Virus record (IMG/VR): IMGVR_UViG_3300033052_000130
Coordinates: 1-35,425 of that record
Strand: one strand, 5' to 3'
Length of the DNA: 35,425 nt
DNA from: a virus
Shown here one piece after another: positions 3,562 to 32,680 of the stretch. Each line of letters starts with the position of its first letter. Position 1 is the first letter of the stretch. A program made the translations under genes and the position numbers. The notes under the pieces were generated by a model. It saw only the letters and a list, made by a program, of their open reading frames with translations, searched no databases and was not told where the DNA came from.

Positions 3562-6540
3562 TTAGTAGCCCTGAATTTGGACGTTGACCGTGCGCACGAC
3601 CCGCGCGCCGGTGTTGTAGACATCGATGGCGCAGCCGCTGAGCGTGGGGCTGCTGATCACAATGTCGTCTCCCGCCACCGCGCCAACGATCGTGCATTGC
3701 ACGAGCGGCAGGCCGCCGATACCGGCGCCCCCGTTGAACGGCTTGCTGTAGGTGATTACCGTGGCAGCTGACGCAGAAGTGACGGCTTGGTAGGGGTCGA
3801 TCCGGTCCGGCACATCCACGCTGAAATCGAGCGAGGTGATGAAGCCGGTGACCTTCGGATCGCTCGATGCCACCAGCAGGCGCGCCTTGAAATACCGTGC
3901 GTTGTAGAGTCCGGGCTGGTAGTTGAGCCATGGCCCATAGACCCCGTCATCCCCGGCAGTGGCGATTTGTGCCTGGATACCGATCTTTGCGCCCAGCGAC
4001 GCGCCAAACAAATCAGACACGCCGAGCACGTCGGCCATGGCGAGGAAGTTGTCGTAGATAGACTGACCGCGCGCCGTGTAACTGATGCTCACTTGGCATG
4101 GTGCAATGCGCCCTATGTCCACCGAATGACCGGCCGACAGGGTGTAACTGCCGGAGGCGGCTACACCGCCGAACCACAGCACATCCGGCAGACCAAGAAA
4201 GTCTGCCACGCCAAGGATGTCACCTGCAGCGCCCAGCATCAACTCGCCGCCAACCAGATCGAGGTTGCTGCGGGTACCTGGCCAGCCGGTGGACGCCTCG
4301 TCCCACACGGCTACCACGTTGCGCGCCAGGGTCGCACCGGTGACCACCACTTGCGTAGGGTTGAGGGAATACGCACTGACGCCGCCGATGGTCATGTAGT
4401 GCGCCGCCACCCAGTAGGTGCCGTTGCCAGGCGCCGTAAAGGTTGGCAGCGGCGTACGACCCAGCACGGTGCTCCCATCCCATGTGGCGCCGGCGCGGAT
4501 TTCGTAGTCCACATCGGGCTGGCGGAAGTCGTTTACCGTGTCCCAGTAGATCTGCTGCTGACCGCCCACGTAATTGGAGCCAATGCCGGTGAGGTCGGGC
4601 AGTGGCGACTGCAGGGCCGCGCCGGTGGGCGTGTAGGTGATGGCGCTCACGTCGGCCAGCGACTGCTGGGCGCCGCCATAAATATTCTTGGCCGGCAGCT
4701 TGATATGGAACTTCTGCCCGATTTGCGCTGCAGTGAAGGGCAGCTTGAAGAATGCATCGTCCACACGTGTGAACGAGACCCCCACCGGGTGGCTGGCCAC
4801 CGCCGTGTTGTAGGCGCCGCGGCGCAGGTAACTCAGTTCGTAACGGTTTGCAGCCACCAGGTTGGCGGTCTGGTAGCTCAACAACTCCCCCTCCAGAACG
4901 CACAGGGTGGTCAGGCTGTCGGCATCGGCCTGGCTGCCGCTAAGCAACTGGCCGCGGCTCATGGACATGTCTGCCGTCAGGGTATTGGTCACATCCGGGT
5001 CATCGCCGGAAGCCAGCGCCACCGCCAGCACGCCTTGGCGGGCCGGGCCCGGGAGTTCGCCCACCTGGCGGTAGGTGGCGCCGTCTTGCGACACCCACAC
5101 CTGGGCGCCGCCCCACAGCGGCCCGCCGCTGGTACCAATCCAGATCTCCAGGCCGTTGGTTGTCAGCGTGTCCGGCGCCTCGAAAACTGTGGGCGGATTG
5201 CTGTCACCCGGATTCGCGTTGTAGTTGTGAGAGAAACCGCTGCCGGCGGGCGCTCCATAGGCGGGCGCGCTGGCCAGGCCGACCGGGCAATCTTCGGCCT
5301 CGATCTCGAAATCGCCGGCATCCGTCTCTGTGATGGTATTGATGCGCACCGGGATACGCGCAAGCGCCAAAAAGTCGTCTGTCACGCTCACCAGGTCAAG
5401 CGGCTCCAGCAGCGCAAACGTCCATGGCAACGTGAACTTGTACAGGTTGCGCACCCCCATCTCGCGCTGCAGCAGCAGCGAGGCGAGCAGTTCAGCCACG
5501 ACGGCATCACAGATTGCGTGCGCTTCGACGGTGCCTTTGGTACGCAGGCCTCTCTCGTCAATATCGGCGGCGTCTTTGCGCTCGGCGATCTCTGTGTTGT
5601 AGTCGTTTCCCCGGTTGGTGTACTCAACCCGCACGTGGTTGAACACGTCGTCTGGCGGCCTGCGCTCTATGCGCAAAGGGTCTTCGTCGGCGCTGTCGAC
5701 GAGAAAGTGGTCTTCTGTCAGGTCGTAGACCGGTGTGGTATTGGGGGTGTAGTTGGCGCCGTTGGCCGAGCAGGCGGCATCGCCCAGTGGCACGTACTTG
5801 AGCACCCCTTGCGACCAGGTCACATCGGTGTTGCTCAGGTCAAGCAGGTAGCGCAACCATTCAGCAGCGGGCTTCTGCTGCAGCAATGCAGGGCTGCCGA
5901 CCAGGTTCTGCGCCAGGCAGTAATTGGCCCAGGCCGTGAAATCACCCGCTTGCCCGACTGGGAAGCTGGCGCCGGACCGCTGGTTGGTCAGCAGGTCTTG
6001 CGCCACGAGTGCCAGGTTGGCATCCCCCGTGCTGACGGCCTCCCATGCAGTGCTGACTTCAAAGCTGTGGTTCTCGATCGAGGCGTCCCCACCCAGGTCG
6101 TAAGCCGGCGTGTACACATAGGCCATGCCACTGTAGCCCAAGGCTTGTGCCGGGTAGTTGGTGCTGAGGTAGCCCCATACCGCCTGGCCCAGTGTGCCGC
6201 TCATCAGGCTCAGGCCGCTGCTACCGCTGTCTCCCGCCAGCTTGGCCTTGCCGCGCCAGACGGTGCGCACGGCACTGACCGGTCCCTCGCCCAGTGCCAT
6301 CATTACGGCGGCGGTGTAGGTGTAGGTGATGTTGCTCTGCGTAATGCCGCCGCCGCCCTTGCCGCCACTGCTTTGCGTTGTGGTGTGCGGTATCGCAGCA
6401 AAGCCGCCATACCAGAGCAGGTTGCCGCTGATGCGCAACCTGCCGTAGATCATGGCGATGGCCGACCCATAGACCGAACTCTGTACCCGCAGATTACCTG
6501 CGGCCGGCTCTACCGTGCTGACAGTGCTTCCGCCACTCAT
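3562..6540 (-). CDS. Tail tip / host specificity protein (gpJ-like, phage-tail_3 type)
   Basis: A 992-aa central tail tip protein that would form the distal tail hub and start DNA delivery. The N-terminal third resembles the GTA/phage-tail_3 hub (RIERRPPDDVFNHVRVEYTN, then YKFTLPWTFALLEPLDLVSV). The middle carries fibronectin-like beta modules, and the C-terminus is a collagen-poor beta region ending VNVQIQGY. Order DUF2460-DUF2163-NlpC-tip is the conserved tail tip module of rhodobacterial gene transfer agents and many siphophages. The start overlaps the NlpC stop by ATGA. Length is normal for the family. Confidence 0.85.
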   Translation of the reverse strand: MSGGSTVSTVEPAAGNLRVQSSVYGSAIAMIYGRLRISGNLLWYGGFAAIPHTTTQSSGGKGGGGITQSNITYTYTAAVMMALGEGPVSAVRTVWRGKAKLAGDSGSSGLSLMSGTLGQAVWGYLSTNYPAQALGYSGMAYVYTPAYDLGGDASIENHSFEVSTAWEAVSTGDANLALVAQDLLTNQRSGASFPVGQAGDFTAWANYCLAQNLVGSPALLQQKPAAEWLRYLLDLSNTDVTWSQGVLKYVPLGDAACSANGANYTPNTTPVYDLTEDHFLVDSADEDPLRIERRPPDDVFNHVRVEYTNRGNDYNTEIAERKDAADIDERGLRTKGTVEAHAICDAVVAELLASLLLQREMGVRNLYKFTLPWTFALLEPLDLVSVTDDFLALARIPVRINTITETDAGDFEIEAEDCPVGLASAPAYGAPAGSGFSHNYNANPGDSNPPTVFEAPDTLTTNGLEIWIGTSGGPLWGGAQVWVSQDGATYRQVGELPGPARQGVLAVALASGDDPDVTNTLTADMSMSRGQLLSGSQADADSLTTLCVLEGELLSYQTANLVAANRYELSYLRRGAYNTAVASHPVGVSFTRVDDAFFKLPFTAAQIGQKFHIKLPAKNIYGGAQQSLADVSAITYTPTGAALQSPLPDLTGIGSNYVGGQQQIYWDTVNDFRQPDVDYEIRAGATWDGSTVLGRTPLPTFTAPGNGTYWVAAHYMTIGGVSAYSLNPTQVVVTGATLARNVVAVWDEASTGWPGTRSNLDLVGGELMLGAAGDILGVADFLGLPDVLWFGGVAASGSYTLSAGHSVDIGRIAPCQVSISYTARGQSIYDNFLAMADVLGVSDLFGASLGAKIGIQAQIATAGDDGVYGPWLNYQPGLYNARYFKARLLVASSDPKVTGFITSLDFSVDVPDRIDPYQAVTSASAATVITYSKPFNGGAGIGGLPLVQCTIVGAVAGDDIVISSPTLSGCAIDVYNTGARVVRTVNVQIQGY

Positions 6541-29462: not shown

Positions 29463-29651
29463 ATGGAGCAGATCGTCTCAATCGACCAGATCGAGCGGCA
29501 GGCCCGGCTCGACGCTCAGCGCTACAGCGACGTCAATGCCGCCTGTCCTCACCCATTCCACACAGCCGCCGGCCGCCTCTACAGGAAAACCTTCGAGCAG
29601 GCGCGTGACGAGCTGAAAGCCCTGGCCAAGACGGAGGGCAACAGCAAATGA
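29463..29651 (+). CDS. Small hypothetical early protein
   Basis: A 62-aa protein (MEQIVSIDQIERQARLDAQR...), helical, with one Cys and His residues in the middle (NAACPHPFHTAAG). It ends in an ATGA overlap with the cupin-like gene. Function unknown. Confidence 0.55.
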   Translation: MEQIVSIDQIERQARLDAQRYSDVNAACPHPFHTAAGRLYRKTFEQARDELKALAKTEGNSK

Positions 29652-30262
29652 ACCTCATCTGGCAAATCATCGCCCTCACCCTGACCCGCAGCCCGCGCCT
29701 GGTTGACTGGCTTATCCGCCACGCCCAGCGCACCCCGTACACCCATATCCGCAGCGCAGACGGCCAAGACGTCTACATGGGCCGCTGGTGGCTCTTCAAC
29801 CCCTACGGCCGCAGCGCTGATGACGAGCAGACCCCCGCCCGCATACCGTGGCTGCCAAGCGTGCGCATCCACCACATCTGCCGCCCCGATCAGGACCGCG
29901 ACATGCACGACCACCCGTGGAACGCCCGCACCATCGTGCTGCGCGGCTGGTACCAGGAAGAACGTCCCTACGATTCGTGCGGCAAAGCTGACATCGAGCA
30001 GCACTGCGTCGAAATCTACCGCCCGCGTTCATCTGCTCCGCCTCGCGGCTATTACGGCCCACGGCGCGCCGTCCTCAACCGGAATGCAGGCTATACCGGC
30101 CCCCTTCTTTTCGGCCAATACCACCGCATCAGCAAAGTCAGCCCCGGCGGCGTGTGGACGCTCTTCATCACCGGCCGCAAGCGTGGCACCTGGGGCTTCC
30201 AGGTCAACGGCAAGAAAGTGCCGTGGCGCACCTACCTCGGTCTGGATCAACAAGGCACTTAA
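29648..30262 (+). CDS. Cupin-like phage protein, unknown substrate
   Basis: A 204-aa protein. The segment DRDMHDHPWNARTIVLRGWY holds His87 and His89, with His75/His76 before it (SVRIHHIC), a metal-binding cupin pattern often seen in phage-encoded cysteine-dioxygenase-like proteins of unknown role. The natural C-terminus seems intact (NGKKVPWRTYLGL). Residues 118-189 are encoded by a 216-bp stretch that occurs again, base for base, in the chimeric gene at 31724. No substrate can be given. Confidence 0.7.
   Translation: MNLIWQIIALTLTRSPRLVDWLIRHAQRTPYTHIRSADGQDVYMGRWWLFNPYGRSADDEQTPARIPWLPSVRIHHICRPDQDRDMHDHPWNARTIVLRGWYQEERPYDSCGKADIEQHCVEIYRPRSSAPPRGYYGPRRAVLNRNAGYTGPLLFGQYHRISKVSPGGVWTLFITGRKRGTWGFQVNGKKVPWRTYLGLDQQGT
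29999..30214 (+). repeat. 216-bp exact direct repeat, copy 1
   Basis: Every base from 29999 to 30214 is identical to 31844-32059, and both flanks diverge at once. This copy is in its natural setting inside the cupin-like gene. The shift between copies is 1845 bp. Confidence 0.97.
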
Positions 30263-30823: not shown

Positions 30824-31192
30824 ATGAACATCGCATCCCTGCCTGCTCTGGGCGCCCAACTCGAAGGCGGTATCTTTGCCGGCGTCACAACCCTCAAAGA
30901 CGGCACGCACTGCGCCGTCGTCCTGCTGCACGAACAGGGCACCAACCTCACCTGGAAGAAAGCCCTGGCATGGGCCGAAAAGCAAGGCGGTGAACTGCCC
31001 ACACGCCCCGTGGCCGCACTGCTCTTCGCCAACGTCAAAGACAAGCTACAACCCCGCTGGCACTGGACCAGAGAGGAAGACGACGCCTCCTTCGCCTGGT
31101 ATTGCTACTTCCTCAACGGCGACCAGAGCATCTACCCCAAGAGCTACGAAGGCTCGGCTGTTGCCGTCCGCTTGATTCCCCTCACCGCCTGA
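30824..31192 (+). CDS. DUF1566/C-type-lectin-like protein, DGR variable protein 1
   Basis: A 122-aa protein of the DUF1566 type found as diversified targets of diversity-generating retroelements. The typical run is LTWKKALAWAEKQGGELPTR, ALLFANVKDKLQPRWHWT, then the variable end SFAWYCYFLNGDQSIYPKSY and EGSAVAVR. The ligand-facing residues fall in the last 45 residues, from about Trp79. AGGAAA precedes the ATG. It may display a variable surface for binding, but where it acts (virion or lysogen surface) is unknown, and it is short with no signal peptide. The neighbouring gene is a paralogue. Confidence 0.85.
   Translation: MNIASLPALGAQLEGGIFAGVTTLKDGTHCAVVLLHEQGTNLTWKKALAWAEKQGGELPTRPVAALLFANVKDKLQPRWHWTREEDDASFAWYCYFLNGDQSIYPKSYEGSAVAVRLIPLTA
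31058..31171 (+). repeat. Variable repeat (VR) of DGR protein 1
   Basis: Runs from the shared TGGCACTGG to the end of a 34-bp block (31138-31171) identical to the one in VR2. Over 20 aligned codons it differs from VR2 at 13 bases, all at codon positions 1 or 2. Confidence 0.8.
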
Positions 31193-31226
31193 GTCCTTCA
31201 GTCCTTTCAACCCACAGGAGCCAACC

Positions 31227-31688
31227 ATGCCCACCATCACCCTTGAAGCCGTCCAGGCCAAGCAAACCGAGCTTGCGGCCATGATCGCGCAGCTGACCAC
31301 ACAGGACCGGAAGACCACTGAAATCGAGATCGAAGGCCGCACCATCGAACTGCAGCCTGGCGAGCATTACGCCGGTGCCGCGCTGAACGAAGACGGCCAG
31401 CACAAGCACCACCTGGTGCTGATGGCTCAGCGCCCTGATGGCGACTTGAACTGGCAAGCCGCCATGGACTGGGCTGCCAGCGTCAACGGAGCGCTGCCTA
31501 CCCGCCAGGAGCAAGCCTTGCTCTACGCCAACTGCAAGCCGTACCTGCAGCCTGCGTGGCACTGGTCCAGCGAAACGCACGAGAACGACGCCTCCTCCGC
31601 CTGGGATTGCAACTTCGGCGACGGCTACCAGAGCGACCACGACCACAAGAGCTACGAAGGCTCGGCTGTTGCCGTCCGCAGAGTCTGA
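31227..31688 (+). CDS. DUF1566/C-type-lectin-like protein, DGR variable protein 2
   Basis: A 153-aa paralogue of the gene before it. An N-terminal helix (residues 1-30) precedes the shared core (LNWQAAMDWAASVNGALPTR, ALLYANCKPYLQPAWHWS), and the variable end begins near Trp111: SSAWDCNFGDGYQSDHDHKS, then YEGSAVAVRRV. The C-terminus AVRRV is the common end of DGR targets of this class. SD AGGAG lies upstream. The Avd-like ORF follows after 35 bases, as in the usual DGR order target-avd-template-reverse transcriptase. Confidence 0.87.
   Translation: MPTITLEAVQAKQTELAAMIAQLTTQDRKTTEIEIEGRTIELQPGEHYAGAALNEDGQHKHHLVLMAQRPDGDLNWQAAMDWAASVNGALPTRQEQALLYANCKPYLQPAWHWSSETHENDASSAWDCNFGDGYQSDHDHKSYEGSAVAVRRV
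31557..31679 (+). repeat. Variable repeat (VR) of DGR protein 2
   Basis: From TGGCACTGG to the end of the conserved block at 31646-31679. Asn/Asp/Tyr/Ser/His codons with third base C or T dominate, as expected from a template rich in AAC codons. It is one codon longer than VR1 near its 3' end. Confidence 0.8.
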
Positions 31689-31723
31689 GCCCTTTGGTCC
31701 TTCAGTCCTTTTGAGCTAAGCCC

Positions 31724-32680
31724 ATGGCCCTGCATACCGAACTCCCCATCCACCGCACTGGCGTGCGCCTGCTCGATCTGGCCATCAAGGCCCAGGTGCA
31801 GATGCCGCGCACTGTCAAGCGCGCGTTGGGCGAGAAGATTACCCAGCACTGCGTCGAAATCTACCGCCCGCGTTCATCTGCTCCGCCTCGCGGCTATTAC
31901 GGCCCACGGCGCGCCGTCCTCAACCGGAATGCAGGCTATACCGGCCCCCTTCTTTTCGGCCAATACCACCGCATCAGCAAAGTCAGCCCCGGCGGCGTGT
32001 GGACGCTCTTCATCACCGGCCGCAAGCGTGGCACCTGGGGCTTCCAGGTCAACGGCAAGCGCCCGGACCTGAGCGAAGACGGAGAACGCCCCACTACCCT
32101 GGGCCAGGCGTTGGGCAAAGACGCCCCCGCGCCCATCCTCTTCATTCACCCCAAGACCCAGGAGGCCATGGAGCTGGTGCCCGAAGACGAGGCCGAAGCC
32201 ATCCTGCTGGCCAAAGGCCTCATCAAGCCCGAGCAGGCCGAGGCTTCTCAAGTCAAGAACCTGCAGCAGCTCGAAGAGGAACTGCAGGGGCTGCAAAAGG
32301 AAATTACCCACAAGACTGAGCGCAGCGCTCACACCGAGCTCTTCAACACCACCCTGCAGGCCATCCACAAAACACCCACCGCCAAGGCCAAAACACTCCT
32401 CACAAGCGAAGCCCTGCGCGCCTGGCTGCACGCCGAACTGGAGATGAACGGCGACCTGTGGCCAGCGCACCCTCTCCTCTGGCGGCCCAAGCTGGAGCCT
32501 GCAGCACGTCTTGAAACCATCACCGAAGGCGACCGGATACACCGCAGCGCCAAGGAACTGATCGACCTGGCCGACAGCCTTGGCAAAGTTGTCACCATCG
32601 AACGCACACCACTTCACCCCTTGGCCATGGGCCACGCGGACTACGAGGTACACGTTCGGGAAAAGCGGGTGCGTTCATGA
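31724..32680 (+). CDS. Chimeric ORF: Avd-like N-terminus + cupin fragment + unknown C-terminal protein
   Basis: A 318-aa ORF in three parts. Residues 1-40 (MALHTELPIHRTGVRLLDLA, then MPRTVKRALGEKIT) match the start of Avd/four-helix-bundle proteins that partner DGR reverse transcriptases. Residues 41-112 are exactly residues 118-189 of the cupin-like protein, from the duplicated 216 bp, in frame. Residues 113-318 are unrelated: PTTLGQALGKDAPAPILFIH, then an acidic coiled coil (about 165-200) and a helical C-terminus. This looks like the back part of a phage ParB-like or DNA-metabolism protein, but the family is not certain. The Avd part is too short to fold as the usual bundle, so I regard this as a recombination product of doubtful function. 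Confidence 0.75.
   Translation: MALHTELPIHRTGVRLLDLAIKAQVQMPRTVKRALGEKITQHCVEIYRPRSSAPPRGYYGPRRAVLNRNAGYTGPLLFGQYHRISKVSPGGVWTLFITGRKRGTWGFQVNGKRPDLSEDGERPTTLGQALGKDAPAPILFIHPKTQEAMELVPEDEAEAILLAKGLIKPEQAEASQVKNLQQLEEELQGLQKEITHKTERSAHTELFNTTLQAIHKTPTAKAKTLLTSEALRAWLHAELEMNGDLWPAHPLLWRPKLEPAARLETITEGDRIHRSAKELIDLADSLGKVVTIERTPLHPLAMGHADYEVHVREKRVRS
31844..32059 (+). repeat. 216-bp exact direct repeat, copy 2
   Basis: Identical to 29999-30214. Here it joins the Avd-like start to an unrelated C-terminal sequence, so it marks a recombination junction. Perfect identity implies a recent event or ongoing exchange. Confidence 0.97.

Follow-up and report, generated by a model that had tools for sequence, protein, structure and literature searches.

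How did two neighbouring paralogous genes of a tailed phage come to carry the adenine-mutagenesis signature of a diversity-generating retroelement (DGR), in a genome where neither a reverse transcriptase (RT) nor a template repeat (TR) accompanies them? The stretch of DNA analysed here, hereafter called the window, is a complete virus record of 35,425 bp that consists of a single metagenomic contig; its gene content is that of a tailed, integrase-bearing phage, with a GpA-type terminase and with minus-strand capsid and tail genes, and the integrase is located at the right end. The comparison with related phage loci indicates that the two genes in the window are probably the targets of a phage DGR that acted in cis and whose core has since disappeared from this genome. 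The features on which this reading is based are listed in Table 1.

Table 1. Coordinates, strand and properties of the features of the DGR locus in the window.
Feature	Position	Strand	Properties
Source of 216-bp copy	29999..30214	+	Within cupin/cysteine-dioxygenase-like gene 29648-30262 (PHROG 4786, E 2.8e-39)
Target gene 1	30824..31192	+	122 aa, DUF1566/Lcl_C-like; 58-72% identical to target 1 of L001-L013; paralogue of gene 2
VR1 core	31083..31171	+	Aligned to L012 TR; 10/26 template-A sites changed vs 1/63 other sites
CTTCAGTCCTTT, core of 8-nt-periodic repeat after VR1	31196..31207	+	
Target gene 2	31227..31688	+	153 aa, C-type-lectin-like fold; PF07603 E 1.3e-5, below curated cut-off
VR2	31588..31679	+	Versus L012 TR: 9/26 template-A sites changed, 1/63 others, plus 3-nt insertion
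CTTCAGTCCTTT, core of 8-nt-periodic repeat after VR2	31700..31711	+	
avd 5' stub	31724..31861	+	First 46 codons; PHROG 3206 "Avd protein of DGR", E 8.9e-5
Fused ORF	31724..32680	+	318 aa; one reading frame through the avd stub, the cupin copy and the parB tail
216-bp exact copy of 29999-30214	31844..32059	+	100% repeat; replaces avd 3' end, TR, RT and parB 5' half
parB C-terminal remnant	32060..32680	+	From approximately residue 316 of L005 parB; 44% identity over 140 aa, E 1e-32

The Target Gene Pair

The product of target gene 2 is predicted to contain a C-type-lectin-like domain; its AlphaFold model (pLDDT 93) found its best PDB match in the C-terminal domain of Legionella Lcl (8q4e, E 2.8e-5), and the fold comparison also returned C-type lectins. 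This match was supplied by the fold comparison after a PDB sequence search had yielded no relative. The sequence profile (PF07603, at a score below the cut-off) and the fold together place the targets among the C-type-lectin-like DUF1566/Lcl_C proteins.

Alignment of the two genes confirmed that they are adjacent paralogs with an identical 3' block of 34 bp, which is part of a 38-bp repeat with one mismatch, and that the differences in the stretch before this block avoid the third codon position. The original prediction had counted 13 differences over 20 aligned codons; the absence of third-position differences stands, but the alignment contains a gap opposite an additional codon of gene 2, and the count is 12 or 13 depending on the placement of this codon (8 differences fall on first, 4 or 5 on second and 0 on third codon positions). 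The upstream codons of the same pair differ at 20 first, 23 second and 30 third positions (Fisher p = 0.0066 versus the variable stretch); the third-position silence is therefore specific to the variable stretch. The homologous gene pairs of relatives show the same pattern of first- and second-position changes.

The Cassette in Related Phages

A search with gene 2 identified 32 related loci in viral contigs, and 21 of these 32 contigs contain a reverse transcriptase (RVT_1). In close relatives the genes are arranged in the order target1-target2-avd-TR-RT, which in locus L005 continues into a parB gene with the domains ParB_N (4-116) and HTH (119-217); parB is also found downstream in L002, L006, L009, and L010. 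The RT of the relatives matches PHROG 1423 (E 1e-107), and the L012 version is 31% identical to Brt (E 1e-40) and contains the motifs YVDD and IGNLSSQ; judged by these sequence matches, it can be assigned to the DGR clade. The L012 avd gene product was recognized as Avd by PF22296 (bAvd, over the cut-off) and by PHROG 3206 (E 1e-21). When the variable repeats (VRs) of nine relatives were compared with their own TRs (18 VR/TR pairs), 197 of 455 A sites were changed, versus 24 of 1150 other sites (p = 3e-95).

Some targets are located away from the core, approximately 9 kb from the RT in L097 and several kilobases away in L098, L107, L113, and L140. In these five loci the distant target is followed by unrelated genes, and each target keeps the VR end and the 8-nt repeat described below. 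EBPR siphovirus 1 was considered as a further relative and set aside; it has a related target, without an RT and without a matching repeat.

Variable Repeats and Template Repeats

Tested against the actual TRs of relatives, the predicted adenine-mutagenesis signature holds for both targets of the window. In comparison to the L012 TR, the two VRs pooled are changed at 19 of 52 A sites and at 2 of 126 other sites, so that template adenines account for 19 of the 21 mismatches (p = 6e-10), and the 3' block of both VRs is identical to this TR. The two exceptions, in VR1 and in VR2, concern the same base, and the TR of L004 carries the window's base there; the lost TR of the window probably had this L004-type base as well. 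The segments 31083-31171 and 31588-31679, with their adenine-restricted differences, are thus confirmed as VRs of a DGR with two targets.

VR2 exceeds VR1, as well as the TRs of close relatives aligned with it, by one codon; the additional codon lies within the AAC-repeat part of the template, and slippage during cDNA synthesis is a possible origin. In L013, a second copy of target 2 (5983-6474) closes with the LIPITA tail of target 1, as if recombination between VRs had given rise to this third target.

A Truncated Cassette in the Window

The predicted absence of an RT and a TR was correct for the window: PF00078 had 0 matches, the RT of a relative used as query found nothing, and a TR-like query matched the two VRs only. 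The prediction had noted no trace of the cassette beyond the targets, and thereby overlooked the start of an avd gene at position 31724. This stub is 71.7-97.8% identical to the avd genes of close relatives with intact core, and the homology ends at 31860/31861; the ORF continues into a duplicated piece of the cupin-like gene. The source of the duplicate lies 1.85 kb upstream; the cupin-like gene itself is in its normal place, and the homologs in relatives share its KVPWRTYLG tail end. At the left join, an 11-bp word (CAGCACTGCGT) is common to the cupin source gene and the avd of relatives. The remnant on the far side of the duplicate lacks both the ParB_N and the HTH domain; a peptide-pattern search for relatives of this parB tail confirmed none, and the relationship was found instead through comparison with L005. 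In total, where relatives have approximately 2.5 kb, made up of the remainder of avd, the TR, the RT, and the 5' half of parB, the window has 216 bp.

Of the two origins that had been envisaged for the target pair, a fossil of past diversification is favored, since the avd stub sits exactly where relatives have avd-TR-RT and approximately 2.5 kb are missing at this place; both a real rearrangement and a chimeric contig fit this observation. The gene order target1-target2-avd-TR-RT-parB in relatives, combined with the stub in the window, implies that the cassette was once complete and in cis.

In the history that we propose, the ancestral locus would have had the L005 gene order, and the RT, together with Avd, would have reverse-transcribed the TR RNA, with bases incorporated at random wherever the template has an adenine; the resulting cDNA would have replaced the 3' ends of both targets, leaving differences at A sites only and identity at the remaining VR positions. 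A later rearrangement would have deleted everything from the end of avd codon 46 to the middle of parB, including the TR and the RT, and placed the 216-bp copy of the upstream gene in the gap. Template switching between short homologous words is the probable mechanism; the 11-bp word shared at the left join suggests such switching, either in the cell or during amplification. The C-type-lectin-like targets would now be fixed at their last versions. The 100% identity of the copy and the lack of third-position decay in the VRs indicate that the loss, if real, was very recent.

Probable Core Loss and Alternative Explanations

Incomplete cores recur among the relatives. In a tally of contigs with sequence on both sides, about 13 related contigs have no core or only a fragment of it, and the break points of the partial cores differ. 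The RT is reduced to residues 1-120 in L007 and L008, to 1-105 in L115/L144, to 1-246 in L141, to 1-69 in L023, to 15-52 in L099 and L123, to 296-362 in L013 with its three targets, and to 311-356 in L011, which has also gained an HNH gene; avd residues 1-33 are joined to RT residues 309-362 in L085 and L114, and avd 1-66 to RT 269-364 in L116, whereas L136/L145 retain avd only. L015 (with an HNH gene), L082, and L110 have no core remnant; in these the core is absent rather than demonstrably deleted. The HNH endonuclease-like genes (L011:6472-6963 and L015:6376-6954) occupy the place of avd-TR-RT in relatives.

These many partial cores favor a real and recent loss in the window as well; against it, an assembly or amplification chimera would look alike. 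The phage could then possess a complete and active DGR, and the contig would have joined avd, a cupin fragment, and parB in error while skipping the core. The exact 216-bp duplicate at the break, the simultaneous truncation of avd and parB, and VRs without third-position decay are all consistent with an artifact, and the junction was found in no other viral contig searched, a search that near-identical records may have escaped. Yet the word shared at the left join has only 11 bp, below the usual assembly k-mers, so that a molecule with this joined sequence probably did exist (which would hold for an amplification chimera too), and the fused ORF remains in frame through both joins. Partial cores in relatives also speak for natural loss, in particular the one genotype shared by L007 and L008, which is identical over 9609 bp with 0 mismatches in two metagenomes. 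On balance, a chimeric contig is a serious but unlikely explanation.

Continued diversification in trans, by a DGR of the host or of a co-resident phage that recognizes the repeat and the conserved VR end before it, had been offered as the second origin of the pair. It is not needed, as the cassette is complete and in cis in relatives, although it could operate at the present day: both VRs still end in the block that matches the L012 TR exactly, both are still followed by the repeat, and the distant targets of relatives lie as far as approximately 9 kb from their RT. The avd stub, on the other hand, marks a former cis system, and no RT acting in trans is known for this record, which has no linked host genome; we regard diversification in trans as quite improbable. 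Finally, ordinary paralogs under positive selection without any DGR would accommodate non-synonymous differences in a likely binding surface, but are refuted by the adenine restriction against actual TRs, the near-identity elsewhere, and the RT and avd genes of relatives, and retain hardly any probability.

Relation to Known Systems

The cassettes of the relatives resemble the Bordetella phage BPP-1 DGR (mtd-avd-TR-brt) in the order target-avd-TR-RT, in the 3'-terminal VR within a C-type-lectin fold, and in the changes at A sites; they differ by two targets and by an 8-nt-periodic repeat instead of a GC-rich hairpin after the VRs, and in the window the core is missing. Two targets served by one TR are known from the phage DGRs nd4 and nd12 (PMC10743442), where the targets differ in topology and the cassettes are complete.

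Orphan DGR targets as such are already known from Treponema and from cyanobacteria. In Treponema denticola, targets with A-type VRs occur in genomes without RT and TR, and were read as remnants of core loss (PMC4891356); those are genomes of bacterial isolates, whereas the present cases are phage contigs, with an avd stub and a visible break point in the window. The orphan variable protein all3226 of Anabaena has residual TR-VR homology and no nearby RT (PMC7517822), but is a dispersed chromosomal paralog without an adjoining cassette remnant. Orphan targets in phages would mean that a genome can shed its hypermutation machinery yet retain the binding proteins that it had diversified; such loci would escape surveys that start from the RT, such as PMC8144416.

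An 8-nt-Periodic Repeat Downstream of the Variable Repeats

The word CTTCAGTCCTTT has two matches in the window, both after VRs, where 0.003 would be expected. In the clade of the window, CTTCARTCCTTT occurs 9-30 nt beyond the VR end, as the core of an 8-nt-periodic repeat (AATCCTTC AATCCTTT AATCCTTT). For flanks picked independently of the motif, the lag-8 self-match is 0.44 (z = 11.9), and neither the sequence preceding target 1 nor that following TRs gave a lag-8 signal. In the Janthinobacterium clade the sequence is another one, of ATTTA type, with the same 8-nt period (z = 7.8). Among the close relatives that were selected by protein and have an RT, the examined VRs show no more than one mismatch to the motif, which is missing from the TRs; the VRs that lack it (the second VR of L011, L020, and EBPR siphovirus 1) are all in records without an RT. 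The motif also accompanies targets that lie kilobases from the RT and adjoin unrelated genes. Loci L080-L143, which provide the majority of the 79 flanks in the hairpin test below, were fetched by the motif itself and are excluded as evidence for its conservation.

In phage DGRs, a hairpin or cruciform with a GC-rich stem of 7-10 bp is located downstream of the VR (PMC3240598); it is not a strict requirement, and its deletion leaves residual activity (PMC12875486). A GC-rich hairpin was found in 0 of 79 VR flanks, with best stems of 3-6 bp at the level of shuffled sequence, while the same detector recovered the BPP-1 hairpin as a positive control. From this pattern of sequences we infer that the 8-nt repeat is a putative recipient mark that replaces the hairpin; alternatively, it may serve transcription or translation from its position between the genes. 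A broader proposal holds that this betaproteobacterial clade of phage DGRs marks its recipients by a linear repeat of 8-nt period directly behind the VR (RTYCTTCARTCCTTT in the clade of the window, ATTTA-type in the Janthinobacterium clade) in place of the BPP-1 hairpin, that this mark guides cDNA homing, enables the use of targets kilobases from the RT and distinguishes VRs from the TR, and that these phages repeatedly lose the core and freeze their targets; here we see belief and doubt evenly balanced. The repeat appears to be new, as no earlier report was found in the literature covered, with subscription journals largely outside its scope. If it is a recipient mark, DGRs would have at least two ways of labeling a target, which would be useful for directed evolution tools, and the idea is directly testable in reconstituted E. 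coli systems.

A stem of 4 bp that alternates within the repeat (TTGA-TCCT-TCAA) was rejected as a structural element; variants with TAA or TAG stop codons break it, and its stems are at shuffle level. Repeats after VRs span the loci L001-L015, L016-L031, and L080-L143, whose TRs have no such repeat. Motif matches without a target, in L092 and L126, were treated as chance.
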